64,000 nucleotides of DNA from Aquabacter sp. L1I39 (GTDB lineage: Bacteria > Pseudomonadota > Alphaproteobacteria > Rhizobiales > Xanthobacteraceae): the NCBI RefSeq assembly GCF_017742835.1, contig NZ_CP072392.1, positions 893,388 through 957,387 on the forward strand, given 5' to 3'. Numbering within the stretch: the stretch's first letter is position 1; the number at the start of each line of letters is the position of its first letter. The notes beneath the pieces are model-generated. The model was not told where the DNA came from, did no database searches, and saw only the letters and a program-made list of their open reading frames with translations. Shown here piece after piece: positions 8,336 through 21,711 of the stretch. A program made the translations under genes and the position numbers.

Positions 8336-9784
8336 ATGTCGAGCCACGCCCCCGCCCCCCTCCTTCTGCCCCCCGAAGTCACCGCTCCGGTCCTTGAGCG
8401 CATCGCCGCCCGCATCGGCGCGCGCCATGTGCTCGTGGATGCTGGCGACATGGCGCCCTATCTGGTGGAGGATCGCGGACTGTTCCGGGGTGTGGCCCCT
8501 GCCGTGCTGCGCCCGGGCAGCACGCAGGAGGTGGCCTTCTGCGTATCGGCCTGCGCCGAGGCGGGCATCCCCATGGTACCCCAGGGTGGGAATACGGGGC
8601 TTGTGGGCGGGCAGGTGCCGCTGGGCGGCATGGTGATCTCGCTCCAGCGCCTCGACCGCATCCGCCGGGTGGATGCCTCCGACTATACGATGACCGCCGA
8701 AGCGGGCTGCACCCTCCACGGGGTGCAGCAGGCGGCGACGGAGGCCGGCTGTCTGTTCCCCCTCTCCATTGCTTCGGAAGGCTCCTGCCGGATCGGCGGC
8801 AACCTGGCTTCCAATGCGGGGGGCACCGCCGTCCTGCGCTATGGCAATACACGGGAGCTGACGCTGGGCCTGGAAGTGGTGCTGGCCAATGGCGAGGTGT
8901 GGAACGGTCTTTCCCGCCTCCGCAAGGACAATACGGGCTATGATCTGAAGGATCTCTTCATCGGCTCTGAGGGCACGCTCGGCCTCATCACCGCCGCCGT
9001 GCTGCGCCTTTACCCCAAGCCCCGGCAACGGGCGACCGTGCTGGCCGGCGTGCCCGATCCCCACCTTGTGCTGTGCCTGTTCGAGCGGCTGCGCGCCGAG
9101 GCCGCAGATGCCCTCACCGGCTTTGAGATGATGCCCTCCTTCGGCATGGAAATGGTGCTGCGGCATATGCCCGGCATGGTGCGCGCACTCCAGGGCACCC
9201 ACCCCTTCTATGCCCTCATCGAGCTGACCTCCCCTCGCGCCCGCGATGACCTGTCTGGCCTCGCGGAGGACGTGCTGGGCGCGGCGCTGGAGGCGGGGGA
9301 GATCGAGGATGCGGTGATCGCCGCCAGCGAGAGCCAGGCCGACGGGCTCTGGGCGCTGCGCGAGAACATGTCGGAAGCCCAGAAGTTCGAGGGCGGCTCC
9401 ATCAAGCACGATGTCTCGGTTCCCGTCTCCTGCGTCGCCGACTTCGTGGTGGAAGCCAGCCGTCGCTGCGAGGCGCATATGCCGGGCGTGCGGGTGTGCG
9501 CCTTCGGCCATGTGGGCGACGGCAACATCCACTTCAATCTCAGCCAACCCCCAGACATGGAGAAGGCCGCCTTCCTCGCCTCCTGGGAGGGCTTCAACCG
9601 GATTGTTCATGACTTGGTGGCGCAGATGGACGGCTCCATCTCCGCCGAACACGGCATCGGCTTGCTCAAGCGGGAAGAGCTGGTCCGCTATAAGGACAAG
9701 GTGGCTCTTGACCTGATGGCCCGCCTGAAGAGCGCCATCGACCCGCGCGGCCTGCTCAATCCCGGCAAGGTGCTGATGGGCTGA
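8336..9784 (+). CDS. FAD-linked D-2-hydroxyacid dehydrogenase (D-2-hydroxyglutarate/D-lactate dehydrogenase type)
   Basis: Cytoplasmic or membrane-peripheral flavoprotein of 482 residues in the GlcD/D2HGDH family, which oxidises D-2-hydroxyacids and passes electrons to the respiratory chain or an ETF. The FAD-binding PP-loop is VPQGGNTGLVGGQVPLGG near residue 81, followed by SEGSCRIGGNLASNAGG and GSEGTLGLITAAVLRLYPKP. The C-terminal FAD-oxidase domain has FGHVGDGNIHFNL, whose histidines hold a metal in relatives, and SAEHGIGLLKREEL near the end. Length and motif order are complete. It stands alone, starting 44 bases after the TetR gene, and ends four bases from the convergent MFS gene. Substrate (hydroxyglutarate, lactate or glycolate) is not decided by the sequence. 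Confidence 0.9.
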   Translation: MSSHAPAPLLLPPEVTAPVLERIAARIGARHVLVDAGDMAPYLVEDRGLFRGVAPAVLRPGSTQEVAFCVSACAEAGIPMVPQGGNTGLVGGQVPLGGMVISLQRLDRIRRVDASDYTMTAEAGCTLHGVQQAATEAGCLFPLSIASEGSCRIGGNLASNAGGTAVLRYGNTRELTLGLEVVLANGEVWNGLSRLRKDNTGYDLKDLFIGSEGTLGLITAAVLRLYPKPRQRATVLAGVPDPHLVLCLFERLRAEAADALTGFEMMPSFGMEMVLRHMPGMVRALQGTHPFYALIELTSPRARDDLSGLAEDVLGAALEAGEIEDAVIAASESQADGLWALRENMSEAQKFEGGSIKHDVSVPVSCVADFVVEASRRCEAHMPGVRVCAFGHVGDGNIHFNLSQPPDMEKAAFLASWEGFNRIVHDLVAQMDGSISAEHGIGLLKREELVRYKDKVALDLMARLKSAIDPRGLLNPGKVLMG

Positions 9785-9788
9785 GGCT

Positions 9789-11009
9789 TCAGGCCCGCTT
9801 CTGGCGCCCGCCCACCCCAAGCACCGCCAGGATGCACAAGGCCAGAGGAACCGACGCGGCCAGGAACACCGCCTGGTTCAGGTGGTGGTCGAGCAGCACG
9901 CCATAGACCAGCGGGCCCAGCAGCGAGCCGATGTCGAACCCGGAATAAACGACGCCGAACACCTTCCCCGTCGCCCCGACAGGCGCGGCACGCCTGACCA
10001 GAACGTCCCGCGAAGGCATGGTGACGCCGAAGAACAGGCCGATGCCGGCGATCAGCGAGACTGTGACCCAGGGCGGATGGACTGCCATCCCGACACTAGC
10101 ACAGGTGAGGGCCGCAAGCGCCAAACCCGCCATCGCGACCCGGTGGTGATGGGTCGCCCGATCCGCCAGCACGCCGCCGATGGACACGCCCACGATGGTG
10201 GCGAGCTGGTAGCAGCCGAGCGCCAGCGCCGCCAGCGAGGCGGAAAGGCCATAGCCCTCCTGAAGGGCGGTAATGGAAAAGGACTGCACGCCCACCAGAG
10301 CCATGGCAGAGGACAGGAAGTAGAGAAAGGCCAGCACCACCACCGGGGTCATCAGCACATGGGCGAAGCTGATGACCGGCAGGCCATCCGGATGCGCCGC
10401 AGCCCGCGCCGCCCGACTCTGCGTCTTCAGAAGCGGGCGCGCCAGCAGGAGGCCGCAGGCAATGGTCAGGCAGGTCAGGCCAAGAATCATCAGTGCGGTG
10501 CGCCAGCCGAACATGAGCGCCAGGAAGCCGGAGGCGATGGGTGAGAGGGCAAAGCCCAGATTGCCCGCGATCACATGCGCCGCGAAGGCCCGCCCCAGCC
10601 GCTCAGAGCGCACCCGGTGGCTCAGGATGGACAGGTCGGCCGGGTGATAGACGCTATTGCCGAGGCCAGCGAGGGCCGCGAGCGGCAGCATGGCGGCATA
10701 GGACGGGGCTAGGCCCAGCCCCGCCATGGAGGCGGATTGGAGCACCATGCCCGAGATCAGCAGCCGGTCGGCACCGAACCGGTCCACCAGCACGCCGGCC
10801 ATCACCTGCCCGGTGCCGGAAAACAGATAGAAGACCGAGAGCAGCAGGCCAAGATCGGTGAACGACACGTTCAGGTCGCTGCGCATGCCGATGAAGAGCG
10901 GCGCCAAGGCGAGTTGAAGCAGATGGCTAACGAAGTGGGCGGTGCCCACGGCCGAGATGGTCGCAAGCTCGCGCTGCGGCTCGACGGCTGAAGGTGCGGC
11001 AAGGCTCAC
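9789..11009 (-). CDS. MFS transporter, fosmidomycin-resistance (Fsr)-like
   Basis: Inner-membrane protein of about 406 residues with twelve predicted helices. Segments such as ISAVGTAHFVSHLLQLALAPLF near the N-terminus, VFYLFSGTGQVMAGVLVDRFGADRLL (motif A) and the NSVYHPADLSILSHRV loop resemble the Fsr efflux family. I use the GTG at 11009 (VSLAAPSAVEPQRE) because GGGAG lies about five bases upstream; the ORF extends to 11120 with implausible sequence. It follows the SpoIIE phosphatase gene on the same strand after 155 bases, so co-transcription with that operon is possible but unproven. Substrate unknown. Confidence 0.85.
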   Translation of the reverse strand: MSLAAPSAVEPQRELATISAVGTAHFVSHLLQLALAPLFIGMRSDLNVSFTDLGLLLSVFYLFSGTGQVMAGVLVDRFGADRLLISGMVLQSASMAGLGLAPSYAAMLPLAALAGLGNSVYHPADLSILSHRVRSERLGRAFAAHVIAGNLGFALSPIASGFLALMFGWRTALMILGLTCLTIACGLLLARPLLKTQSRAARAAAHPDGLPVISFAHVLMTPVVVLAFLYFLSSAMALVGVQSFSITALQEGYGLSASLAALALGCYQLATIVGVSIGGVLADRATHHHRVAMAGLALAALTCASVGMAVHPPWVTVSLIAGIGLFFGVTMPSRDVLVRRAAPVGATGKVFGVVYSGFDIGSLLGPLVYGVLLDHHLNQAVFLAASVPLALCILAVLGVGGRQKRA

Positions 11010-11164
11010 GCGTCTCTCCCGGGCACCGCCTGCTCTGGGCGGCGCGCTTGTATCTGGCCAGGGGATCCCGCGCGAGCCGCCTACCCGCCAGCGGGCAAAA
11101 CTCTCCCGGCACTGAAGCACCCATCTTTCCAGAATTATCTTTTAGACCAGCTGGGAGGATCGCC

Positions 11165-13216
11165 CTAATGCGTATTGCGCGGGCCTTGCCCGCCGAAATA
11201 GCGGAGCGTCAGCAATGTGATGTCGTCGGCTTGGGGGGCACCCCGCTCGAAGGCGCGGATGGAGGCCAGCACGTCGTGCTCCACCTGCGGCACCGGCCGC
11301 TCGTGGATGCCCGATGCCAGCAAGGCCTCCAGGCGCTTTTCGCCATAGGGCTCGTCGTCGATGTCGAAGGCCTCGGTCACGCCATCGGTGAAGAGGATGA
11401 GGGTATCGCCGGGGACCAGTTGGATCTCCCGCTCCGCATAGACGAACCCCTCCATCACCGCCACCGCCATGCCCTTGGTGGTTGGCAGTGCATCGACCTT
11501 GCCTTCGCGGGAGATGCGGTAGGGCGGATTGTGCCCGGCATTCACATAGGTACAGCGGCCCGTGTCCAGGTCGATGACGCCATAGAACAGCGTCACGAAC
11601 AGCATCTGGTCGTTCTCCACCGCCAGGAGATCGTTGAGGCGGCGCACGCTGCTGGAGGGCGACCGTTCGAACATGGCCGTCGAGCGCAGCAGGGTCCGGG
11701 AAATGGCCATGAACAGCGCGGCCGGTACGCCTTTGCCGGACACGTCCGCGACCACGAAACCCAGCGTCGAGCGGTCGATGAAGAAGTAATCGTAGAAATC
11801 GCCGCCCACTTCGCGGGCCGGCGTCATGTGGCCGTCCACCATCACGCGCGGGTCCGGCGGGAATTCCTTGGGCAGAATGGCCAGTTGAACCTGCCGGGCG
11901 ATCTCCAATTCCTGCTGGAGGCCGGCCAGCTTGGTCTTGGTGATCAGAGCCTCGCGCAGCTCCACCACCATGGAGGACAGGCGCGTATATTGCTCGACGA
12001 TGCGGCGCGAGAGATCATGCAGCACCCGCGCAACCCGGCGCAGCTCATCGTCGCCCTCACTGGCCTCAGGACGCGCGAGCAAGGCCAGGACTTCTTCCCG
12101 GTCGGTGGGGTCGATGGCATCGGCCAGCGCCTTCAGTTCGCTGGAAATCACCGCCTCCTGCCGACGCCGCACCCGCTCGCGCTGCCGCCGGCTTTCGGCA
12201 AGGGCCTGGGCATTGGCCCGAAGCCCCACAACGGCCTGTCCGATGCGGCCGATCTCGTCCGCCCCCGTGTGATCGAGCGTCCCGGAGGTGTCGCCGCGCG
12301 AGAGCGCCTCCAGCACTGCGATGGCGTTTTCCAGCGGGCGGAAGCTGTACCAGAGGAAGACATACAGGCCGAAGAGGCCGAAGATCACCAAAGCGAGGCT
12401 GACCAGGATGGCGGTACGGCGCAGCGTGGCCTGTGCCTCCCATTCTGCGGTCTCGTCCTTCAGACTGACCACGGCGCCGACGATGGAGCCGGCGAGGTCG
12501 TCCACCGGCACCGTGGTGACCGAATAGGTGCGCGGCCCCACCGCCACCTGTTCATAAAGGGCGACGCGGGGGGAGACGGCGAGATTTGCCTGCCGCCAGA
12601 GCACCTCGTCCGAGGTGTCCACCAGCTTCCCGCGCAGCGACACCAGGGAGGCGACGGCGCCCAGGCTGGAGGCGAATCGGTTCACGGCAATGCGCGCGTC
12701 GCGGGCCAGCACCACCGCCACGGCGCCTCGCCCGGCCAAGGTGAGGGTACGGGAGGCTACCACCAGGATGTCCGTCGCCGAGACGGCGCGCAGCCCGCCC
12801 ACGGACCGCCCGGTCAGGGCCTTGTCCAGAGCGCCGGCATCCAGAATACCGCGCCCGAAGGCATCGCCGATGCTGAAAACAATGTCGCGCCTCTGGTCGA
12901 TCATCTCCAAAGAGAGGTTGGGGATGTCTTCCTCGTACCCCAGTTCCTTCAGCTCCTGGAGCACCCGCTCCCGATCGCCGGCGGCGAGCGCCTCCATGGC
13001 AAGGGGGGAAGCCTCCAGTTCAGCCAGAATCTGGTCGAGATCGGAGACTTGAGCCTCGACGATCTCGCTCCACAGGGAGCCTTGCAGCGAGATGGCGATC
13101 TGGGAGGACCGGCGGTGCTCCAGCCGGTCGCGCACCAAGCTCGCCCCGAAGAAAGCGAGGCATAGCGCCACGAAGCCGATGCCCACCAGCAGGGTGATGC
13201 GTGATCTCAGCAGCAT
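11165..13216 (-). CDS. Membrane HAMP-SpoIIE serine phosphatase (RsbU/IcfG-like)
   Basis: Protein of 683 residues, the phosphatase arm of a partner-switching system. Layout: TM1 at about 8-27, a periplasmic sensor region to about 268, TM2 at 270-292, HAMP at about 293-345, a coiled-coil linker to about 445, then a PP2C/SpoIIE domain. Catalytic metal-binding motifs are GGDFYDY (471-477), DVSGKG (491-496), TDGVTEA (610-616) and ADDITLL (663-669), so it should be active. Family members dephosphorylate a STAS anti-sigma-antagonist; the likely substrate here is the STAS protein encoded at 21409. The start codon overlaps the stop of the preceding gene (TGATG), and three genes form one minus-strand operon divergent from the kinase/STAS operon. 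Confidence 0.95.
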   Translation of the reverse strand: MLLRSRITLLVGIGFVALCLAFFGASLVRDRLEHRRSSQIAISLQGSLWSEIVEAQVSDLDQILAELEASPLAMEALAAGDRERVLQELKELGYEEDIPNLSLEMIDQRRDIVFSIGDAFGRGILDAGALDKALTGRSVGGLRAVSATDILVVASRTLTLAGRGAVAVVLARDARIAVNRFASSLGAVASLVSLRGKLVDTSDEVLWRQANLAVSPRVALYEQVAVGPRTYSVTTVPVDDLAGSIVGAVVSLKDETAEWEAQATLRRTAILVSLALVIFGLFGLYVFLWYSFRPLENAIAVLEALSRGDTSGTLDHTGADEIGRIGQAVVGLRANAQALAESRRQRERVRRRQEAVISSELKALADAIDPTDREEVLALLARPEASEGDDELRRVARVLHDLSRRIVEQYTRLSSMVVELREALITKTKLAGLQQELEIARQVQLAILPKEFPPDPRVMVDGHMTPAREVGGDFYDYFFIDRSTLGFVVADVSGKGVPAALFMAISRTLLRSTAMFERSPSSSVRRLNDLLAVENDQMLFVTLFYGVIDLDTGRCTYVNAGHNPPYRISREGKVDALPTTKGMAVAVMEGFVYAEREIQLVPGDTLILFTDGVTEAFDIDDEPYGEKRLEALLASGIHERPVPQVEHDVLASIRAFERGAPQADDITLLTLRYFGGQGPRNTH

Positions 13217-14043
13217 CAGACGCCCCCCGGCGTGTCACTCTTGGCCCCGGGCCGGGCGAAAACCTTGCGCCGCAGGCGCTCCACCTCAGGGCGCAGGCGG
13301 CCGTCAAAATCGACGGTCAGAATCTCTTCCGCATAGGCCTGCACCGCCGTCTGCCGCTCCACCACGCGCCGCACGCCCTCGCGCAGGGCCCTGAAGGCGG
13401 TGCCCACCGCACCGAAGCTCAGGACCGCAGGGGGCGGACCAAGATCGACATCGCCGTCTGCCGTCTTGGCCAGCATGCCCGCCAGCCGCCGGCGCGAGCG
13501 GGCGAGGCTGGCCCCGGCGAACACGGCAGCGGCGCCGGCACCGAGCACCGCGCAGACCGCCACCGAAAGAACAGCCTGGCGCGTGAGATCGGCGAAGGCG
13601 GAGGATAAGGTGGCGGGCGTGGTCACCACGTCCACCTGTCCCATTTGGATGCCATCCACCTGGATCGGCATGGACACCGTGTCCGTCCCCGGCGCGGGGC
13701 CGACGGCGCTGCGCAATTCCCGCCCATCCGGCCCGCGCAGGACAATCCGTGTGAGGCCGGGCGTGCGCGAGAGCGTCTCGTCCAGATAGGCCTCGACCCC
13801 CGGCAGGAGCTTGAGCGGAATGCCGAAACGGGCGGCCTTCTCGAACTGAGAGGCGAGCGCGCGCGCCACCGTGGTCCCAATCAGGGTCGCGTCGCGGCGC
13901 GCCTCGTGCTCCACGCGCTCGCGGAAAGTGGAAACCAGGAAGGCGGCCGCCGCCCCTCCAACCAGCAGGGTCACGAGGAAGACGAACAGGGCGCAGGCGA
14001 GGCGGTCGCGGCCTCTGGCGGCCGGGTGCGAATCAGTGCGCAT
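13216..14043 (-). CDS. Two-helix membrane sensor protein A
   Basis: Protein of about 275 residues with no family I can name. TM1 is at about 16-37 and TM2 at about 157-180, enclosing a 120-residue periplasmic domain. That domain contains FGIPLKLLPGVEAYLDETLSRTPGLTRIVLRGPDGRELRS, a cache-like pattern also found in the proteins at 14033, 14944 and the N-terminus of 15594. The cytoplasmic tail (about 95 residues) has a HAMP-like start and a short helical end but no enzyme domain. The ATG at 14043 (MRTDSHP) lies inside the end of the upstream gene; the 14169 start would overlap it far too much. It probably senses an extracellular cue and acts with the phosphatase. Confidence 0.8.
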   Translation of the reverse strand: MRTDSHPAARGRDRLACALFVFLVTLLVGGAAAAFLVSTFRERVEHEARRDATLIGTTVARALASQFEKAARFGIPLKLLPGVEAYLDETLSRTPGLTRIVLRGPDGRELRSAVGPAPGTDTVSMPIQVDGIQMGQVDVVTTPATLSSAFADLTRQAVLSVAVCAVLGAGAAAVFAGASLARSRRRLAGMLAKTADGDVDLGPPPAVLSFGAVGTAFRALREGVRRVVERQTAVQAYAEEILTVDFDGRLRPEVERLRRKVFARPGAKSDTPGGV

Positions 14044-14779
14044 CGTCCAGCTCCTGCAGCTCCCGCATCCCGATCTCGGCCCTCTCTTCCGCTGCGTCCC
14101 AGGTCTTGCGGGTCTGCGCGGCAAGGGTCTCAAGCCGCCATCCGCGATGAGGCCGCATGCGTTCCCCACGCAGGATGCGGGACACCCGTGCGAAAGGGCG
14201 GGTCAAGACGAACGCGCACCCCATGGCCGTCAGGAAACCGACAAGGCCAGCGGCGCCGATGAGGAGGCCGGATTGGGTGATGAGCGAAAGACCCAGCGTC
14301 TCAACCCGATGCACCCGTGCCGAATCCGACACCGTCACGGCGATGCCGCCGGCAAGGCCCAGATCGCCGTCGAAGCGGGTGCCGAAGATGGTTTCCCGGC
14401 GACCCTCCAGGCGCCAGATGCCGTCGTGCGCGAGCGGGGTCAGCCACGACTTGTCCACCGTCTCGCCGATGGCGCCGCGGTCGGTGCTGTACATGAACCG
14501 ACCCGGCGCGCTGAAAATATCGATGGCGACGATGGATGGGTCATTCACCTTCTCGCGCTCGATCCGCGCCTGCAGCAGGGAGAGCTGATCGAGGGTCAGG
14601 CCGATGGACAGGTTGGCTTCGGTGGCGCTGCGCAGCGTACCCAGGAGGTGGGACACGCGGGCCATCTCGATCTCTTCGCCCACCTTGGTGCCCGCAAGGA
14701 AGGCGGCGCCGGCCACCGTCACAAGCGTGACGAGGAGCGTCCCCAATGTCACCAAGACGAGCCGACTGACAAATGCCAT
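14033..14779 (-). CDS. Two-helix membrane sensor protein B
   Basis: First gene of the minus-strand operon, 248 residues. TM1 at about 6-29, periplasmic segment 30-165, TM2 at about 170-193, then a cytoplasmic tail of about 55 residues ending in helical, charged sequence (TWDAAEERAEIGMRELQELDD). The periplasmic part has IGLTLDQLSLLQARIE, then VNDPSIVAIDIFSAPGRFMYSTD, which aligns by eye with the sensor modules of the neighbours (glycine-hydrophobic-QL, a helix, then a strand and a DGR-like turn). No catalytic domain is present. The ATG lacks a clear Shine-Dalgarno sequence. Its stop overlaps the next gene by 11 bases. Role inferred: input subunit for the SpoIIE phosphatase. Confidence 0.8.
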   Translation of the reverse strand: MAFVSRLVLVTLGTLLVTLVTVAGAAFLAGTKVGEEIEMARVSHLLGTLRSATEANLSIGLTLDQLSLLQARIEREKVNDPSIVAIDIFSAPGRFMYSTDRGAIGETVDKSWLTPLAHDGIWRLEGRRETIFGTRFDGDLGLAGGIAVTVSDSARVHRVETLGLSLITQSGLLIGAAGLVGFLTAMGCAFVLTRPFARVSRILRGERMRPHRGWRLETLAAQTRKTWDAAEERAEIGMRELQELDDAH

Positions 14780-14943
14780 GAAGAGAAAATGCTGTTTCGT
14801 GAAGCGCGCGGGACGTTACCGCCCCGGGCCGTTGCAAACCAGACCCAAACTGAGCAGAATCGAAAATACCAAACTCTTCGAGACGTTTCCCCGCCTTTCG
14901 AGCCGCCAACGGGACGCGCGGCGATCTCAGCGAGCGAGCCATC
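14780..14943. promoter_or_regulatory. Divergent promoter region of the partner-switching locus
   Basis: 164 bases between the two divergent operons. It is AT-richer than its surroundings in the middle (CAGAATCGAAAATACCAAAC). I see no perfect operator palindrome and no clear GGAAC/GTT EcfG-type promoter, so control is left open. Both operons must start here or very near. Confidence 0.5.
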
Positions 14944-15597
14944 ATGACCCGTACGACCGTGGGCCTGATTACGCTGTTTGCTCTGATCGCGGCCGTCTGC
15001 GTTGCGTTCGGCGCCTATTTCTCCTTCATCACGCTGCAGAATGCCCACCGCCAGGCGGTGGAGGCGCGTTTTACCATCACCGCCGAACGCATCGCCCAGA
15101 CCGCGCAAGTGGCCGATGCCCTCGGCATTGCCCTGCCCATGCAGGAGACGCTGACCGGCGTGCTACGCCGTGAAGAGCGTCTCGACGATGCAATCCGCTC
15201 CATAGACGTGGTGGACCGGCGCGGTCATGTGCTGTTCAGCAGCGCGCCGGACCGGGTGGGCGTCACCGAGCCGCGCCGGATCGCCGATTCGGTGGCGGCC
15301 GGCATCGAGAATGACCTGGCAGCCGTCATCGGACAGGTGGTGGTGCGTTATGATCCGCACGCGCTCGCCACCGGCGCCGCGGCCCTGTCCGAGGATCTCT
15401 CACGGATCGCCGTTCCCACCCTGCTGGGCGCCGGCCTCGCCACCTTGGTTATCGGCCTTCTGCTCGCATTCGGCCTGAAGCGGGCGGTGCGCCGGGCGGC
15501 AGACCCAGGCTCCTGGCCGCCTGCGGCCGTTTCCGCGCGGGCGGCGGCCGACGCTGCGCACGCCACCCTCATCGCACCGGAGGTCTCGGGGTCATGA
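14944..15597 (+). CDS. Two-helix membrane sensor protein C
   Basis: Protein of 217 residues, first gene of the seven-gene plus-strand operon. TM1 at about 6-29, periplasmic domain about 30-150, TM2 at about 152-174, and a short cytoplasmic tail of about 40 residues rich in alanine. The periplasmic part has ALGIALPMQETLTGVLRREERLDDAIRSIDVVDRRGHVLFSSAP, the same pattern as the sensor modules at 13216, 14033 and 15594. No enzymatic or HAMP domain of full length is visible, so signal would have to pass by contact with another membrane partner. The stop overlaps the next start by four bases. Unknown family. Confidence 0.78.
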   Translation: MTRTTVGLITLFALIAAVCVAFGAYFSFITLQNAHRQAVEARFTITAERIAQTAQVADALGIALPMQETLTGVLRREERLDDAIRSIDVVDRRGHVLFSSAPDRVGVTEPRRIADSVAAGIENDLAAVIGQVVVRYDPHALATGAAALSEDLSRIAVPTLLGAGLATLVIGLLLAFGLKRAVRRAADPGSWPPAAVSARAAADAAHATLIAPEVSGS

Positions 15598-17585
15598 TCG
15601 GGCTGAGGGCCGGGATTTCCATTGCCATCTCCGTGGTACTTTGCGCGGCGCTCGCCATCATCGGCTGGGGCGCGCAGCACGCGGCTTCGCGCACCATCGT
15701 TCCCGCCATCACGGAGAAGGCCGAATCGGTGAGCCTGTCCGCCGCGGCGCTGGTGGAAAGCGCGCTCCGTGCCGGCATTCCCGTGGACCAGCTGGTGGGG
15801 GTGCGGGACTATTTCGAGGATCTGCGCACCCGCAATCCCGAGCTGGCGGAAATCCGGCTGACCGCCACGGACGGGCGCCTTCTGGGCGTTGCCGGCGCGC
15901 CGCCGGAGACGCCCGATCCCCCTCACGTCCTGGCGGCGGTCACCGCCACGTCCGGCGCGCCCCTGGCGACCCTTGCCATCACCATTGACCCCGGCGTGGT
16001 CGCGCAGCGGGTGAATGCGGTGCTGGTGGACGTCGCCTTCATCGGCATCGTATCGCTCCTGGTGGCGCTGGAACTGGTGGCCCTGGTGGTCGGCAGCAGG
16101 GGCGTCGAGGCGCTGTCCGCCATCGAATCGCGGGTGCGCGCGCTCGCGCGGGGACGGCTGTGGCTGCACGAGGCCCGCCAGGACGCTTCGGCGCCGCTCG
16201 TTGCACCCATCGACCGGCAGGTGCAGCACTTGCACGAGCGCCACGCCAGGGCGCGCGCCGAGGCGATCCGCCGAGGCGATGACGAGGCCGTGGCCGCCCT
16301 CGATGCCATGGCGGTGCGCACCGGGCTCGGCACGGTTCATCCGGGTGAGAACCACGCCGCCACCGTCGTCCGGCCCGCCCTGTTCCTGTTCATGATGGCG
16401 GAGGAACTCACACGCCCGTTCCTGCCGCGCATGGTCCAGGGCATGATCCCCCCCGATTCGAGCCTGACGCTGGATGTGGCGGTGTCCCTGCCCATCGTTG
16501 TCTTCATGGCCGGCGTGGCGCTGTGCCAGTTGCCGTTCGCGGTGGCGTCCGAACGGCTCGGGCGTCGGCGCGGCTTCGTGCTGGGCGCTCTCATCGCCGC
16601 GTGCGCCTATGCCGCCTCTGGCCTCGCCGAGAACTATTACGTCTTCCTGGCGGCTCGGCTCGCCTCGGCGGTGGGCTATGCTCTGGTGTTCGTCTCAGCC
16701 CAGGGCCATGTGATCGACCATTCCCGCCCCGCCGAACGCACAGCGGGCCTTGCCATGTTCGTGCGCGCCATCATGGTTGCGGGCCTGTGCGGCCCCCCCA
16801 TCGGCGGTGTGATCGCCGATCGCCTGGGAGGGCACGCCGCGCTCATGGCCTCCGCGCTGCTGGCCGGGACAGCATTGCTCGTCGCCTTACTGACCCTGCC
16901 GCGCTCCGAGCCGCGCAAGGATGCGGCAGGGGTGGGGCTGGCGGACCTGGCGGCCGCGTTCCGCGCGCCGCGCCTGGCGCCACTTCTGTTCGGCTGCGCA
17001 CTCCCGGCCAAGTTTCTGCTGGTGGCCGTCTGCTTCTATCTCGTTCCGGTGGAGTTGCAGCGGCAAGGCTACAGCTCGGCCGCGATCGGGCGGCTGCAGA
17101 TGATCTATCCCATCCTGATGGTGTTTGCGGTGCCCCTCTTCGCGGCCCTGGCGGAACGGCTCGATGCGCGGGCGAGATTTGTTGCCATGGGCGGCCTGGT
17201 GGCGGGAGCCGGCACTCTGGTACTGCTGCTCGGCACCTCGCCGCTGACGGTCGCTGTGGTCCTGGCGCTGCTGGGGCTGGGCCAGGCCATGTCCATCGCG
17301 CCGCAATCGGCGCTCGTGGCGGACAGTGCCCGCCACATGCCGGGCGGCGGATCGGCTGGCGTCCTCGGCCTGTTCCGCCTCATTGAGCGCAGCGGCAATG
17401 CGGCGGGGCCTGCCGCGGCCGGATTCCTGCTGGCGGTGGCGGGATTTGCTTCCGCAACGGCGCTGATCGGGGTATTCGTGATGTCGGGCGCCCTCGTTTT
17501 CGCTCTGTCCGGCCGCCAGAAGCGCTCCCGGACCGGAACGGCTGGCGACCCGAGGAATGTTTCACCAGAAGGTAGCCCGTTGTGA
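15594..17585 (+). CDS. Sensor-MFS fusion: cache-like two-helix module joined to a 12-helix transporter
   Basis: A 663-residue protein with two parts. Residues 1-240: TM at about 6-27, a periplasmic module with AGIPVDQLVGVRDYFEDLRTRNPELAEIRLTATDGRLLG, a second TM at about 145-167, then a HAMP-like, highly charged helical linker (VQHLHERHARARAEAIRRGDDEAVAALD). Residues 258-640: a major facilitator domain with motif A ASERLGRRRG at 318-327, ERTAGLAMFVRAIMVAGLCGPPIGGVIADRLGG mid-domain and an even helix pattern to the end. A sensory head on an MFS transporter is rare. It overlaps both neighbours by four bases, so it is coupled with the sensor upstream and the binding protein downstream. Whether it transports, senses, or both is unknown. 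Confidence 0.9.
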   Translation: MIGLRAGISIAISVVLCAALAIIGWGAQHAASRTIVPAITEKAESVSLSAAALVESALRAGIPVDQLVGVRDYFEDLRTRNPELAEIRLTATDGRLLGVAGAPPETPDPPHVLAAVTATSGAPLATLAITIDPGVVAQRVNAVLVDVAFIGIVSLLVALELVALVVGSRGVEALSAIESRVRALARGRLWLHEARQDASAPLVAPIDRQVQHLHERHARARAEAIRRGDDEAVAALDAMAVRTGLGTVHPGENHAATVVRPALFLFMMAEELTRPFLPRMVQGMIPPDSSLTLDVAVSLPIVVFMAGVALCQLPFAVASERLGRRRGFVLGALIAACAYAASGLAENYYVFLAARLASAVGYALVFVSAQGHVIDHSRPAERTAGLAMFVRAIMVAGLCGPPIGGVIADRLGGHAALMASALLAGTALLVALLTLPRSEPRKDAAGVGLADLAAAFRAPRLAPLLFGCALPAKFLLVAVCFYLVPVELQRQGYSSAAIGRLQMIYPILMVFAVPLFAALAERLDARARFVAMGGLVAGAGTLVLLLGTSPLTVAVVLALLGLGQAMSIAPQSALVADSARHMPGGGSAGVLGLFRLIERSGNAAGPAAAGFLLAVAGFASATALIGVFVMSGALVFALSGRQKRSRTGTAGDPRNVSPEGSPL

Positions 17586-18619
17586 TCGATCGGCGTTCGC
17601 TCCTTTCGCTGGGCCTCGGCGCGGGCGCCGCGGGCGCGCTCGGCGGGTTCTCCGGGGCCGCGGCCCAGACTGCCGCTGCCGCTGCCGGGCAGGATGCCCC
17701 ATTTCGCATCCTCATGCTGACCTTCCGCGGCGAGACCGACGTAGAGCGGGGCTTCCGCTATTTCTTCGAGGCGGCCGGGGTGAAGGCGGACTTCCTCTCC
17801 CGGGACGTGGAGCGGGACGCCAGTCGCGTGAAGGGAATCCTGGCGGAGACCCTGCCCACCTTCAAGCCTGACCTGATCTACACCTACGGCACGCCCAACA
17901 CGCTGGCCGTGGCCGGTCCCTATGACGCCGCTGACGGTTCAAGTTTCGTCCACGACATCCCCGTCGTGTTCGCCCTCGTGGCGGCGCCCGTACCCACCAA
18001 GATCGCGCCGTCTGTGGCCTCCTCCGGGCGCAATGTCACCGGGGCGGTGCATGTGGTGCCCACTGACGTGCAGATGCGCGCCATGCAGACTTACAAGCCG
18101 TTTTCCAAGGTGGGCGTCATCTATTCGCCCAACGAGAGCAATTCGGTGGTCATCGTCAACGAGATGAAGGCCTTCTGCGACAGCACCGGCGCCGAACTGT
18201 TCGCCCAGCCGCTGAACATGGCCGGCAACCGTCCCACCGGGGACGGGGTGGAGCAGTTCGTGCGCGACATGCGCAACAAGGGCGCGGATTGGCTCTATCT
18301 GCCGCCCGACACCTTCCTCGCCACCATCTTCAACCGCATCGCGCCGGTGGCCATTGACGTGGGCCTGCCCACGTTCGGTTCCACCGAGTTCTTCCTGCGG
18401 GAAGGCGACGGGCTGGTGGGCCTCGTCTCGCGCTATTATTCCGTCGGGCAGCTGGCCGCTTCCAAGGCGGTGCAGATCCTGGTGGAGAAGCGGGCACCCA
18501 AGGACATCCCCATCGAGACGCTGAAGCGGTTCGCGCTGATCATCAACATGAAGGTGGCCAAACGCCTGAGCGTCTATCCGCCCATCGTGATGCTCAACTA
18601 TGCCGAGGTGATCGCCTGA
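17582..18619 (+). CDS. ABC-type substrate-binding protein (ABC_sub_bind/TrpX-like) without a transporter
   Basis: Secreted periplasmic protein of 345 residues. The N-terminus MIDRRSLLSLGLGAGAAGALGG looks like a Tat signal, with a twin arginine at 4-5 and cleavage probably after the GAAAQ region. The mature part has the two-lobe pattern of the ABC_sub_bind family: ILMLTFRGETDVERGFRYFF, IYTYGTPNTLAVAGPYD, IPVVFALVAAPV, GRNVTGAVHVVP and VGVIYSPNESNSVVIVNEMK. No permease or ATPase of an ABC system is nearby, so it more likely delivers a ligand signal to the sensor proteins or to the MFS fusion. The GTG start overlaps the previous stop (GTGA). Confidence 0.88.
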   Translation: MIDRRSLLSLGLGAGAAGALGGFSGAAAQTAAAAAGQDAPFRILMLTFRGETDVERGFRYFFEAAGVKADFLSRDVERDASRVKGILAETLPTFKPDLIYTYGTPNTLAVAGPYDAADGSSFVHDIPVVFALVAAPVPTKIAPSVASSGRNVTGAVHVVPTDVQMRAMQTYKPFSKVGVIYSPNESNSVVIVNEMKAFCDSTGAELFAQPLNMAGNRPTGDGVEQFVRDMRNKGADWLYLPPDTFLATIFNRIAPVAIDVGLPTFGSTEFFLREGDGLVGLVSRYYSVGQLAASKAVQILVEKRAPKDIPIETLKRFALIINMKVAKRLSVYPPIVMLNYAEVIA

Positions 18620-19317
18620 TGCGGGCGGCCCTGGTGGAGACAACGGACATCGCCTTGCATTGGCGCGAGCTGGAACCGTCGGACATCGAGGCGGTGGAGG
18701 CCCTGCATCGGCTGGCGGTGGGTCCCGTGGTGCGACCAGATATCGTCAAGCCGGAGAGCCGGGCCTATTTCGAGAGCATCCTGGCCGGGCGCGGGCGGGT
18801 AATCGGCGCCTTCGACCAGACCGCGGCGGAGGCCGAGCACTGCCTTGTGGCCTACGGCATTCTCCAGCACGAGCATGCGCCGAAGGACAATTGGGAAGCG
18901 GACCTGAAGGTCGCGCCCGGCACGGCCACGGGGCGCCTGGCGGGTGCCTCGGTCGCTCCCGCATTTCGTGGGCGCGCCCTTCAGCGCGCCACCATTTCGG
19001 CGCGCGTCTCCATGGCGCCGCGTGGCATGCTGCTGTTCTCCACGGCCGCTCCCGTAAATACGCCCAGCTGGGCGAGCCTGTTGGCGGAAGGCTTCCCCAT
19101 TCACGGCCTCATCCGCCGCTATGGCGGCTATGCCCGCTATCTGATGGTGCGAGACCATGCCCTCCACGACAGCGAGCAGGCGATCGCGGTGGACCCGGCG
19201 GACATTCCCGCCCAGCTCTCCCTGTTCGAGAAGGGCTGGCATGGCTTTGCCCGCACCCGCCTGCCCTCCGGCCTGCCCGGCATCCTGTTCGCGCCTCCAA
19301 TCGGTCGCCCTTCATGA
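18619..19317 (+). CDS. GNAT-fold N-acetyltransferase-like protein
   Basis: Cytoplasmic protein of 232 residues. The acetyl-CoA pyrophosphate-binding segment is readable as LAGASVAPAFRGRALQRATISARV (about 107-130), equal to GNAT motif A (V-x-P-x-x-R-G-x-x). The following strand MLLFSTAAPVNTPSWASLLAEGFPIHGLIRRYGGYARYLMVRD fits motif B and the closing strand. The N-terminal WRELEPSDIEAVEALHRLAVGP is the usual first strand and helix. The acceptor is unknown: it could be a protein of the switch or a small molecule. The start overlaps the binding-protein stop by one base and its own stop overlaps the kinase start, placing it in the core of the operon. Confidence 0.8.
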   Translation: MRAALVETTDIALHWRELEPSDIEAVEALHRLAVGPVVRPDIVKPESRAYFESILAGRGRVIGAFDQTAAEAEHCLVAYGILQHEHAPKDNWEADLKVAPGTATGRLAGASVAPAFRGRALQRATISARVSMAPRGMLLFSTAAPVNTPSWASLLAEGFPIHGLIRRYGGYARYLMVRDHALHDSEQAIAVDPADIPAQLSLFEKGWHGFARTRLPSGLPGILFAPPIGRPS

Positions 19318-19760
19318 CTGCCAGCGGCTCGCAGCCTTCCAGCGACACGCTTCCGATCACGGCGGACGTGGATGAAATTCCGCGGGTCAGCGAATGGCTG
19401 GACACTCTCTCGGAGCGGGACGAGTTGCCTCCCGGTCTCCTGTTCGGCGTGCAGCTGAGTATTGAGGAAGCGCTGGCCAACGTCATCAATCATGGCTTTC
19501 CCGGGGGGCGTCAACGAGCTGTCATAAGGCTCGAATACCAGAAGCTTGATGATCATAGGTTCCAGGTGCGGATCGTCGACAACGGCGTGGCGTTCGATCC
19601 GACCGCCGTCGTCTCTCCGGACATGGCGGAGAGTGTCGAGGATGCGAAAATCGGTGGTCATGGGGTGCGCCTCATGCGGCACTTCCTTGAGGCCATCCGT
19701 TATGAGCGCAAAGGTGACGAAAATCATCTTCTCCTGGTGGCAGGGCCCAAGGCCGAATAG
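19314..19760 (+). CDS. RsbW-like serine kinase / anti-sigma factor (HATPase_c)
   Basis: Cytoplasmic protein of 148 residues with a GHKL ATP-binding fold. The N-box is SIEEALANVINHGF (E51, E52, N56), the G1 box DNGVAFDP (from 89) and the G2 region IGGHGVRLMRHF (113-124). In the RsbW/SpoIIAB family such proteins phosphorylate a STAS antagonist and bind either it or a target such as a sigma factor. The ATG at 19314 overlaps the preceding stop (ATGA). The likely partner is the STAS protein at 21409 and the opposing enzyme is the SpoIIE phosphatase at 11165. No sigma factor gene is in the window. Confidence 0.93.
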   Translation: MTASGSQPSSDTLPITADVDEIPRVSEWLDTLSERDELPPGLLFGVQLSIEEALANVINHGFPGGRQRAVIRLEYQKLDDHRFQVRIVDNGVAFDPTAVVSPDMAESVEDAKIGGHGVRLMRHFLEAIRYERKGDENHLLLVAGPKAE

Positions 19761-19787
19761 GGCGTCGCGCGGCCGGGCTCAGTTGCC

Positions 19788-21419
19788 ATGTTGATCATCG
19801 CCGAACTCCTGGCCGGCCTCGGCCTTCTCTTCATCGGCCTCAAGCTGGTGGGTTCGCATCTGCAGGCCGCGCTCGGGCACCGCATCAAGGCGCTCCTCAA
19901 GACCGCCACCAGTTCCGTCCCGGTCGGTTTTGCCTGCGGCACCCTCGCGGGCGCGGTGATCCAGTCCTCGAACGCAGTCACCCTGATCACAGCCAACCTG
20001 GTGCGCAGCGCCTTCCTCACCACCCGCGAGGCGGTGTCGGTGGTGGGGGGGGCCAATGTGGGCACGTCGGTGCTGGTGTTCCTGGCCGCCATCAATGTCC
20101 GTCTGGCCGTTCTTTACCTCCTGGCGCTGATCGGGATGGGATACCAGTTCAAGCTCGACCGCGCGCCGCGCGTGCGCGAATGGCTCGGCGTGCTGCTGGG
20201 CCTCGCGCTGCTGTTCATGGGGCTCGACTTCATCAAGACGGCACCAAAGTCTTTGCCCCTCATTGAGCTGTCCACCTTCGTGAGCGGCTACATCAACCCG
20301 GTCACCGGCATGGCTCTGGGCATTGTGGTGGCCCTCATCACGCAATCCTCCTCCACTGCCGCGATCCTGGTCCTGCCGCTGGTCCAGACAGGTCTGATGA
20401 CCTTCGACGACGCGGTCGTCGTGGTGCTCGGCGCCAATGTGGGGTCTGGGTTGGCCACCCTTTGGACCACCGCAGGCCTCGCCGGCACGGGCAAGCAATT
20501 GTGCTACGTGCATGTAATGGTGAAGGTCTCGGGCACGGTACTGTTCGGCCTCGTCTGGATCATCGCCGAGAAGGGCTTCGGCATCGATGCCCCGATGGTC
20601 GCCCGCGACCTGGTCGACGGGCAGGACTCGGTGGCAATTTCCACTCTATTCCTGGTCCTGCAAGTGCTTGGCGCAGTGGTTGTCTGCATCTCGCCGGGAC
20701 GGATGGCGAGCCTCGCAGCGAGGATCAGTCCGCCCACCCACGAAGACCACATTTCGCAGCCCACTTATATTCATCCGGCCGCACTCGAAGACCCCTCGAG
20801 CGCCCTTGAGCTCGCCGCGCGGGAGGCCCGCCATCTCCAGCGCCACTTGCCCGGACTGATCCCTGACCTTGACCAGCGGACGGGGGACGATCGCACCCAC
20901 CGCGCGGCCATCGCTCGCGGCGCAAGCATGGTGTCCACCGAAACCGAGCTCTTCCTCACCGACCTGATGCAGCGAGGCTTGGCGCCTCAAGACCTGGATT
21001 TCGCCCTCAGGATCCGGGGCGAGTTGGTGCTGATGCGAGACCTGAGGACCACCCTCTCGGAGCTCAGCGACATCATTGATGACTTCGACACCGTGCCGCC
21101 GCTCGCGTTCAACCTGTCGGAATCCCTGCGCGCGCTCACCCTGTCGCTGGTGGAGGCGGAGGATGCCGAGGACCTGGACACACTCAGCACCCTTACGGGG
21201 GACCGCAGCGGTTTGATGGAGCGCCACCGGCGCGCCATAGCCACCTCCATGTCCGCTTCGGGAACCGACTTGGCGGCGCTCCAGCACGCAACGGGATTGT
21301 TCGAGCGAGCCGTATGGCTGCTGCATCGGATCGCCCTCACATTGCGCGCGGGCTCGAATGCGGCTAATGCGGCAGAGGAATTGGTCCAAGACGCGCGGGA
21401 ACAGGTTCATGCAGATTGA
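19788..21419 (+). CDS. Na/Pi cotransporter family protein (NptA/PF02690 type) with PhoU-like tail
   Basis: Inner-membrane protein of 543 residues. Two inverted repeats carry the family hallmark: QSSN at 59-62 (AGAVIQSSNAVTLITA) and QSSST at 186-190 (VALITQSSSTAAILVLPL). Residues from about 340 on are cytoplasmic and helical (REARHLQRHLPGL...ELFLTDLMQRGL...LRDLRTTLSELSDIIDDFD), like the PhoU-related domain of bacterial NptA. The first motif ends in Asn where Ser-Thr is common, so the transported ion may differ or transport may be altered. Its end overlaps the STAS gene by 11 bases. Being inside a partner-switching operon, it could be a target or a sensor of phosphate-like anions. Confidence 0.9.
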   Translation: MLIIAELLAGLGLLFIGLKLVGSHLQAALGHRIKALLKTATSSVPVGFACGTLAGAVIQSSNAVTLITANLVRSAFLTTREAVSVVGGANVGTSVLVFLAAINVRLAVLYLLALIGMGYQFKLDRAPRVREWLGVLLGLALLFMGLDFIKTAPKSLPLIELSTFVSGYINPVTGMALGIVVALITQSSSTAAILVLPLVQTGLMTFDDAVVVVLGANVGSGLATLWTTAGLAGTGKQLCYVHVMVKVSGTVLFGLVWIIAEKGFGIDAPMVARDLVDGQDSVAISTLFLVLQVLGAVVVCISPGRMASLAARISPPTHEDHISQPTYIHPAALEDPSSALELAAREARHLQRHLPGLIPDLDQRTGDDRTHRAAIARGASMVSTETELFLTDLMQRGLAPQDLDFALRIRGELVLMRDLRTTLSELSDIIDDFDTVPPLAFNLSESLRALTLSLVEAEDAEDLDTLSTLTGDRSGLMERHRRAIATSMSASGTDLAALQHATGLFERAVWLLHRIALTLRAGSNAANAAEELVQDAREQVHAD

Positions 21420-21711
21420 GCGGGAACAGGCTGGCGCCGACGTGCTGTTGAAGGTATCGGGGCGCCTCGATACTCCCAATGCCAAGCCGTTCGAGGCGAG
21501 CCTTCTCGAAGTGGTGTCCACCACCACCGGGGGCATCCAGGTGAATCTGGCTGGCGTGGACTATGTGTCCTCTTCCGGCCTGCGCGCCCTGCTGGTGGCC
21601 GGCAAGGCCATGCGCAGCGCCAAGCGCAATCTCTCGCTGGCCTCCCTTCAGCCGCAGATCCGGGAAGTGTTTGACATTTCCGGCTTCTCCACGCTGTTCG
21701 AGATCAGCTGA
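21409..21711 (+). CDS. STAS-domain anti-sigma factor antagonist (RsbV/SpoIIAA-like)
   Basis: Cytoplasmic protein of 100 residues, a single STAS domain. The phosphorylation loop is YVSSSGLRALL, with the conserved serine at position 55 or 56, and the preceding strand is IQVNLAGVDYV. The pattern VLLKVSGRLDTPNAKPFEASLLEVV at the start and REVFDISGFSTLFEI at the end is textbook for the family. When unphosphorylated it should sequester the RsbW-like kinase. I use the ATG at 21409; the frame upstream lies inside the transporter gene. It is the last gene of the operon, 83 bases before trmD. Confidence 0.93.
   Translation: MQIEREQAGADVLLKVSGRLDTPNAKPFEASLLEVVSTTTGGIQVNLAGVDYVSSSGLRALLVAGKAMRSAKRNLSLASLQPQIREVFDISGFSTLFEIS

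Follow-up and report, generated by a model that had tools for sequence, protein, structure and literature searches.

A conserved ten-gene locus in Aquabacter sp. L1I39 combines a partner-switching module with membrane sensors, a solo binding protein and transporters

Gene content and layout of the locus

We analyzed a stretch of 64,000 nucleotides (hereafter, the window) of the genome of Aquabacter sp. L1I39, which comprises 5.39 Mb in one contig (NZ_CP072392.1), and focused on ten genes, here called A to J, that form a putative partner-switching locus. The genes lie in two tight divergent operons, one on each strand (minus, C-B-A; plus, D-E-F-G-H-I-J), and an open reading frame check recovered all ten frames at the window positions used here. 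An earlier note on this DNA, made from the sequence alone, had assigned all three partner-switching parts to these operons, and we found each of them: A (11165-13216, minus strand) encodes a 683-amino-acid membrane HAMP-SpoIIE (PPM) phosphatase (Pfam SpoIIE, E 7.6e-53; HAMP, 9.6e-8), H (19314-19760, plus strand) an RsbW-type serine kinase of 148 amino acids (HATPase_c_2, 1.7e-19), and J (21409-21711, plus strand) a STAS antagonist of 100 amino acids (STAS, 1.1e-15).

The motifs of all three proteins are intact. In A, residues D472, D490, D610 and D664, which we take to be the metal ligands of SpoIIE-type phosphatases, are invariant in 23 aligned sequences, a set that leaves out two relatives' copies (the split gene A of locus L034, and that of L097, with a stop in the chosen frame). 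The kinase carries E52, N56, D89 and the glycines G114, G115 and G117 (GGxG), presumably the N, G1 and G2 motifs of HATPase_c_2 kinases, invariant in 12 of 12 aligned sequences; its best solved relative by profile comparison is RsbW, and SpoIIAB is also among its relatives. Residues S54, S55 and G57 of J are likewise invariant (11 of 11), and by comparison with SpoIIAA we take S55 to be the likely phosphosite. With the SpoIIE/PPM metal motifs, the HATPase_c_2 N/G1/G2 motifs and the STAS phospho-serine motif all present, the existence of a partner-switching module is close to certain. Judged by its conserved residues, the A-H-J switch looks functional, and phosphorylation-dephosphorylation biochemistry of the partner-switch type is very likely.

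Four of the remaining genes encode predicted membrane sensors. B (13216-14043, minus strand; 275 amino acids) and D (14944-15597, plus strand; 217 amino acids) are predicted periplasmic sensors with two transmembrane segments and no recognized output domain, and C (14033-14779, minus strand; 248 amino acids) is a two-transmembrane periplasmic sensor of the Cache/PAS type by profile comparison and predicted fold. E (15594-17585, plus strand; 663 amino acids) fuses a periplasmic sensor to an MFS permease (MFS_1, 2.5e-42, best stretch residues 262-583). Profile comparison showed that the N-terminus of E is homologous to B (hhalign E 4.5e-17), C and D (7.4e-13), and that D is also homologous to C. 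Together with the predicted fold, these comparisons characterize B, C, D and the N-terminus of E as four related, putative Cache-type membrane sensors, in agreement with the sensors and the sensor-MFS fusion of the earlier note. No Pfam family scored above its cut-off for B, C, D or G.

F (17582-18619, plus strand; 345 amino acids) is a TrpX-like substrate-binding protein of the ABC_sub_bind family (1.2e-24) with a Tat-like leader, for which the Pfam TAT_signal match was sub-threshold. Against the TrpX model it scored 96.6 bits (cut-off, 390 bits), and its solved relatives are 6hni, 3lkv and 3lft. F thus shares its family with the TrpX-type ATP-binding cassette (ABC) importers of tryptophan, but Pfam found no ABC permease or ATPase among the ten proteins, and F pairs instead with the sensor-MFS protein; an ordinary amino-acid importer of the TrpXYZ type is therefore ruled out, and the description of F as a solo binding protein stands. 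The adjoining G (18619-19317, plus strand; 232 amino acids) is called GNAT-like from its relatives: precomputed annotation lists PF00583 for 4 of 53 homologues and PF13527 for one more, and several are named GNAT by their source. The GNAT label proposed earlier thus comes from relatives; the window copy itself has no Pfam match. Among named proteins, those nearest to G are from Aquabacter and Xanthobacter. Finally, I (19788-21419, plus strand; 543 amino acids) is a Na/Pi symporter (Na_Pi_cotrans, 6.8e-39) that ends in a dedicated tail of about 215 residues.

The genes had been described as interleaved by overlaps of 1 to 11 bases, which is correct for seven of nine junctions (A/B, 1; B/C, 11; D/E, 4; E/F, 4; F/G, 1; G/H, 4; I/J, 11) but not for H/I, with a 27-base gap, or for C/D, where the operons diverge. 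This divergent region of 164 bases (14780-14943) yielded weak repeats only; neither a sigma-70-like promoter site nor a terminator signal was found in it. None of the ten proteins matched a PADLOC model at E 0.001, which speaks against a known or candidate anti-phage defence system.

Conservation and modular composition

With G as the query, we found matches in 14 of 100 genomes of the family and 14 of 199 genomes of the order, the Aquabacter sp. L1I39 genome being counted in both. All ten genes occur in the same order in 11 of the other 13 loci of the family, some of these 11 having an additional gene between G and H; the remaining two loci are cut by contig ends, and in L034 gene A is split over two frames. 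Of the 13 other genomes of the order with G, all have the phosphatase gene within the same 20 kb as G, and 12 have the kinase or the STAS protein; one order-level genome has an additional second G match (L125), without the locus. A scan of named genomes with an F profile gave 50 loci in alpha- and betaproteobacteria, their visibility being set by two peptide patterns and some of them coming from the same genomes as in the family and order surveys. Of the 39 named loci that exceed 20.5 kb in length, 38 have A, in each case within 10 kb of F; 35 have A with the kinase or STAS protein; and 31 have all three. The one locus of this set that lacks A is that of Xanthobacter tagetidis (L067), which has F, G and an alanine racemase only. 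In these surveys the genes of relatives were called as mechanical frames, of which some starts and small genes may be wrong; H or J missing from a few loci may reflect a contig end or weak similarity, and the clustering of neighbor frames took only frames that do not overlap core genes.

A chance neighborhood is ruled out by the gene order in the family and by the 50 named loci. The earlier note had named loss of the neighborhood in relatives as an outcome that would speak against a system, and the opposite was found; its choice of all ten genes as the unit, in contrast, did not hold. What recurs is a core of phosphatase, sensors, binding protein, kinase and STAS protein, I being found mainly in the Aquabacter-Xanthobacter-Azorhizobium group and 26 of the 50 named loci having an alanine racemase gene, located after G. 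The window lacks this racemase, as do most loci of Aquabacter and Xanthobacter; A. spiritensis (L068) and X. tagetidis have it. Other relatives vary elsewhere: a second STAS gene is common in Xanthobacter loci; in some Rhizobiales and Albimonas loci the kinase is fused to, or lies beside, a nucleotide-cyclase-like domain; and an Ancylobacter locus (L097) and that of a metagenome-assembled genome (L076) are short versions without D, E, G and the racemase. The locus is thus one version of a modular system; in relatives, it is joined by an alanine racemase, a cyclase-linked kinase or a purine permease. We found no description of such a locus in the open-license PubMed Central (PMC) literature, judged by titles and the beginnings of abstracts; it represents a conserved and apparently undescribed variant of partner switching, as the earlier note had supposed.

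Two of these variants have further features. In L045, L046, L048 and L050, an RsbW-type kinase is fused to the C-terminal side of a class III nucleotide-cyclase-like domain, itself preceded by another N-terminal region. This architecture is unusual; the Pfam run that covered the cyclase-like domain was made for L046 and L048. In X. tagetidis, the genes for F, G and the racemase are followed by a PAS-GGDEF gene (L067:9920-15758).

We also surveyed the phylum, using an even sample of 398 genomes, and found F at E 1e-60 in nine, including the Aquabacter sp. L1I39 genome. Among the other eight, F accompanies a partner switch in three; in four, E and F lie inside type VI secretion system (T6SS) clusters; and in one, D-E-F-G stand beside genes of the nonribosomal-peptide-synthetase-like (NRPS-like), PALP and ABC-transporter types (L111:2-16954), with no partner switch found in 20 kb. 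Azospirillum plasmids (two mapped of eight matched) carry D/C-, E-, F- and G-type genes with two-component genes nearby, and no switch genes were found within 15 kb on either side. Throughout these settings E stays with F: it was found beside F in 43 of 50 named loci and in 8 of 8 distant ones. The E-F pair looks like a portable receptor placed before differing outputs, namely the partner switch, type VI secretion and a natural-product-like cluster.

Genes flanking the locus recur in part as well. Downstream of A by 44 bases lies a possible eleventh gene, an open reading frame for a second MFS permease (9789-11120, minus strand), which is found near A in most Aquabacter, Xanthobacter and Azorhizobium loci and was not detected in named loci outside these genera. 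Together with a neighboring gene that we take to be FAD-oxidase-like from its sequence (flavin adenine dinucleotide, FAD), it occupies 8336-11120, and this pair stays near the locus across most of the same group. Outside the window, HATPase_c_2 and SpoIIE matches each fall within a 678-amino-acid open frame (G000:C1:1851551-1853011, plus strand), possibly a fused kinase-phosphatase and a second partner-switch element of this genome.

Candidate outputs of the switch

The earlier note had stated that no sigma factor is encoded in the window, and a Sigma70_r2 search agreed: it found nine matches in the genome and none in the window, the nearest lying about 240 kb past the window end. Among the several possibilities for what the locus does, we consider the best to be control of membrane transporters by a partner switch that responds to a ligand and works without a sigma factor, a reading to which we give roughly even chances of being right. 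Likely, ligand capture by F is read by the sensors: exported F would capture a small ligand and dock on B, C, D and E at their periplasmic Cache heads, and these sensors, without recognized output domains, may act via a shared membrane complex with A, thereby setting the activity of the SpoIIE phosphatase. H would add, and A remove, a phosphate on J, probably at S55, as the intact motifs suggest. In place of a sigma factor, unphosphorylated J or free H may then bind transporters at their cytoplasmic domains and so open or close transport; candidate docking sites are the I tail and, in the two NCS2 purine permeases of the genome, the C-terminal domains with the predicted RsbW fold. E, G and, in about half of the named relatives, the alanine racemase may handle the ligand or its product.

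Transporters had been offered earlier as one option for the output. They are the best-supported candidate, because both the I-tail subfamily and purine permeases with a predicted RsbW fold recur beside the switch. I is present in 18 of 20 Aquabacter-Xanthobacter-Azorhizobium loci (the L054 copy being cut by a contig end) and is mainly confined to this group, and its tail was also matched in L076, L077, L100 and L113. The single other Na/Pi protein of the genome matches I up to residue 363 (62 bits) and not over most of the tail, which rules out I as a generic Na/Pi neighbor; by these alignments, I belongs to a Na/Pi subfamily that has a tail of its own and is repeatedly found next to the switch. 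The NCS2 permeases found beside the switch in relatives have a C-terminal domain with a predicted RsbW/SpoIIAB-like fold and without ATP motifs. The genome carries two copies with this domain, at 1.69 and 2.69 Mb and thus outside the window (L157 and L158; G000:C1:1689635-1690015 and 2693336-2693725, both on the minus strand), one with a sub-threshold HATPase_c_2 Pfam match.

What chiefly leads us to propose transporters as the output is a genome of the survey, G077, in which the switch and both transporter types stand side by side with an input that differs from that of the window locus. There, the genes for an NCS2-domain permease, a STAS protein and a kinase all point one way, whereas those for an I-type Na/Pi symporter, a hybrid histidine kinase and a receiver-SpoIIE phosphatase point the opposite way; F had no match in this genome at E 1e-60. 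A domain-profile search of the 398 genomes found the I tail in four and the NCS2 domain in three, all three among the four (p 3.8e-7, phylogeny being ignored), with profiles that were built from loci of the system itself, so that the survey was not blind.

This limit on the survey is one of several points that weigh against a transporter output. No switch gene was found around either NCS2 gene of the Aquabacter sp. L1I39 genome, which sit elsewhere, or around the three NCS2 copies of G584; of the six NCS2-domain copies in the survey, only that of G077 adjoins a switch. In G380, where the I-type gene stands at the start of a contig, the 15 kb fetched yielded no switch gene. Outside the Aquabacter-Xanthobacter-Azorhizobium group, I or NCS2 lies within reach in only 8 of 30 named loci, so that the majority of relatives would require a different output. 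No fold is assigned to the I tail. As to the NCS2 domain, its match to kinase H by hhalign was weak (probability 7.7%, P 0.0045), Pfam found no HATPase in four NCS2 proteins at E 0.001, and a PDB sequence search with the domain gave nothing useful; its link to RsbW kinases is weak by sequence and rests on the predicted fold and on sub-threshold Pfam matches in the Aquabacter sp. L1I39 genome. We put forward only tentatively, and with less confidence than the general reading, that transport is controlled here in a novel manner: the STAS protein would dock, depending on its phosphorylation, on the RsbW-fold pseudokinase domains of NCS2 permeases and on the Na/Pi tail.

Alternatively, the switch may control type VI secretion, with E-F sensing a periplasmic cue, such as the product of a competitor, and the partner switch licensing assembly or firing of the T6SS. 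This proposal draws on the four distant genomes of eight in which E and F lie inside T6SS clusters (L114, L116, L117 and L118), two of them between ClpV and FHA genes, and on L117, whose E has named homologues from Vibrio. On the other side, the sequence fetched around these four clusters yielded neither A nor H nor J. In another genome, G072, the switch genes (J H C E F G A) and a T6SS cluster diverge from each other, the cluster being identified by TssC, TssE and TssF (Pfam) and TssJ, TssK and TssM (similarity). Co-occurrence, in tests that ignore phylogeny, points the same way: in the family, TssF is present in 11 of 14 genomes with the locus and 3 of 86 without (p 8.5e-10), in the order in 8 of 14 and 22 of 185 (p 1.7e-4; one of the 22 is below the cut-off), and the association persists at genus level (p 9e-4). 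The Aquabacter sp. L1I39 genome itself has two TssF genes, but these lie at 771 kb and 2.88 Mb and the locus at about 905-915 kb, so that, as far as TssF reports, E-F are not embedded among T6SS genes here. Moreover, the flanks of the 50 named loci gave no match to the T6SS genes tested, and all three sampled genomes of Xanthobacter keep the locus without TssF. We judge control of type VI secretion to be unlikely. In one of the four clusters, that of L116, an SBP_bac_3-like gene follows the E-F pair.

Equally unlikely, in our estimate, is a self-made signal, for example a modified or D-amino acid that the racemase and the GNAT protein would make, E export, and F and the sensors read, the STAS output being an enzyme or an unknown target. 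The frequency of the racemase gene in the named loci fits such a signal, as does the place of F in the family of the tryptophan-binding protein TrpX, and the neighborhoods of L111 (D-E-F-G alone beside the NRPS-like, PALP and ABC-transporter genes) and L067 (F-G-racemase beside a GGDEF gene) can be read likewise. However, the window and most Aquabacter and Xanthobacter loci lack the racemase, G has no confident domain in the window, and the racemases of relatives lack a motif that we take to be typical of Alr.

Slightly less likely still is classical anti-sigma control at a distance, in which H would sequester an unlinked sigma factor as RsbW does. H is a standard HATPase_c_2 kinase close to RsbW by profile, and nine Sigma70_r2 matches lie elsewhere in the genome; nevertheless, the window has no sigma gene (the loci of relatives were not searched for sigma factors), and the links between transporters and the switch would stay unexplained. 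In addition, the Gram-negative switches described include several with no identified sigma target (PMC8256260, PMC3999984).

Relation to known partner switches

A, H and J belong to the same phosphatase, kinase and STAS families, with the expected motifs, as RsbU/RsbW/RsbV and SpoIIE/SpoIIAB/SpoIIAA of Bacillus. The Bacillus sets control sigma-B and sigma-F (PMC8256260), unlike the locus described here, with no sigma gene in the window. Within the alphaproteobacteria, the RbaV/RbaW/RbaY proteins of Rhodobacter capsulatus also form a STAS-kinase-phosphatase set, with a target reported as unresolved (PMC3999984). RbaY contains a receiver domain, and rbaV and rbaW make up an operon of two genes; A, in contrast, is a membrane protein with HAMP and without a Response_reg match by Pfam, encoded in a ten-gene locus. 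The G077 locus, with its receiver-SpoIIE protein, is closer to Rba in input than is the window locus.

SiaA of Pseudomonas aeruginosa shares the HAMP-SpoIIE make-up of A, and we know of no sensor array, binding protein or transporters in the Sia system. SiaABCD resembles the locus in combining a phosphatase, a kinase and an antagonist with a non-sigma output, there the diguanylate cyclase SiaD (PMC7647112, PMC8457831, PMC7278518); here, Pfam found no GGDEF domain among the ten proteins. A scored 51.2 bits against the SiaA equivalog model (cut-off, 700), and this failure, together with the missing cyclase, rules out a SiaABCD orthologue. The proposed link to transport has a parallel in the SulP/SLC26 transporters, which carry a STAS domain (PMC8256260) and thus are likewise fused to one half of a STAS-kinase pair. 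The arrangement here is the mirror image: the fused half is the predicted RsbW-like fold on NCS2, and the STAS protein is separate.

Partner switching is best known from the control of sigma factors, and for several switches of Gram-negative bacteria no target has been identified. A conserved switch of alpha- and betaproteobacteria that is rich in sensors, and whose recurring additional genes include transporters, some with the predicted fold of an anti-sigma kinase, offers a concrete and testable non-sigma target. If the proposed transporter control is correct, uptake itself, and not transcription, would be gated by the ligand sensing of a binding protein and a set of headless sensors. The apparently portable E-F receptor, in turn, bears on how bacteria rewire sensing.

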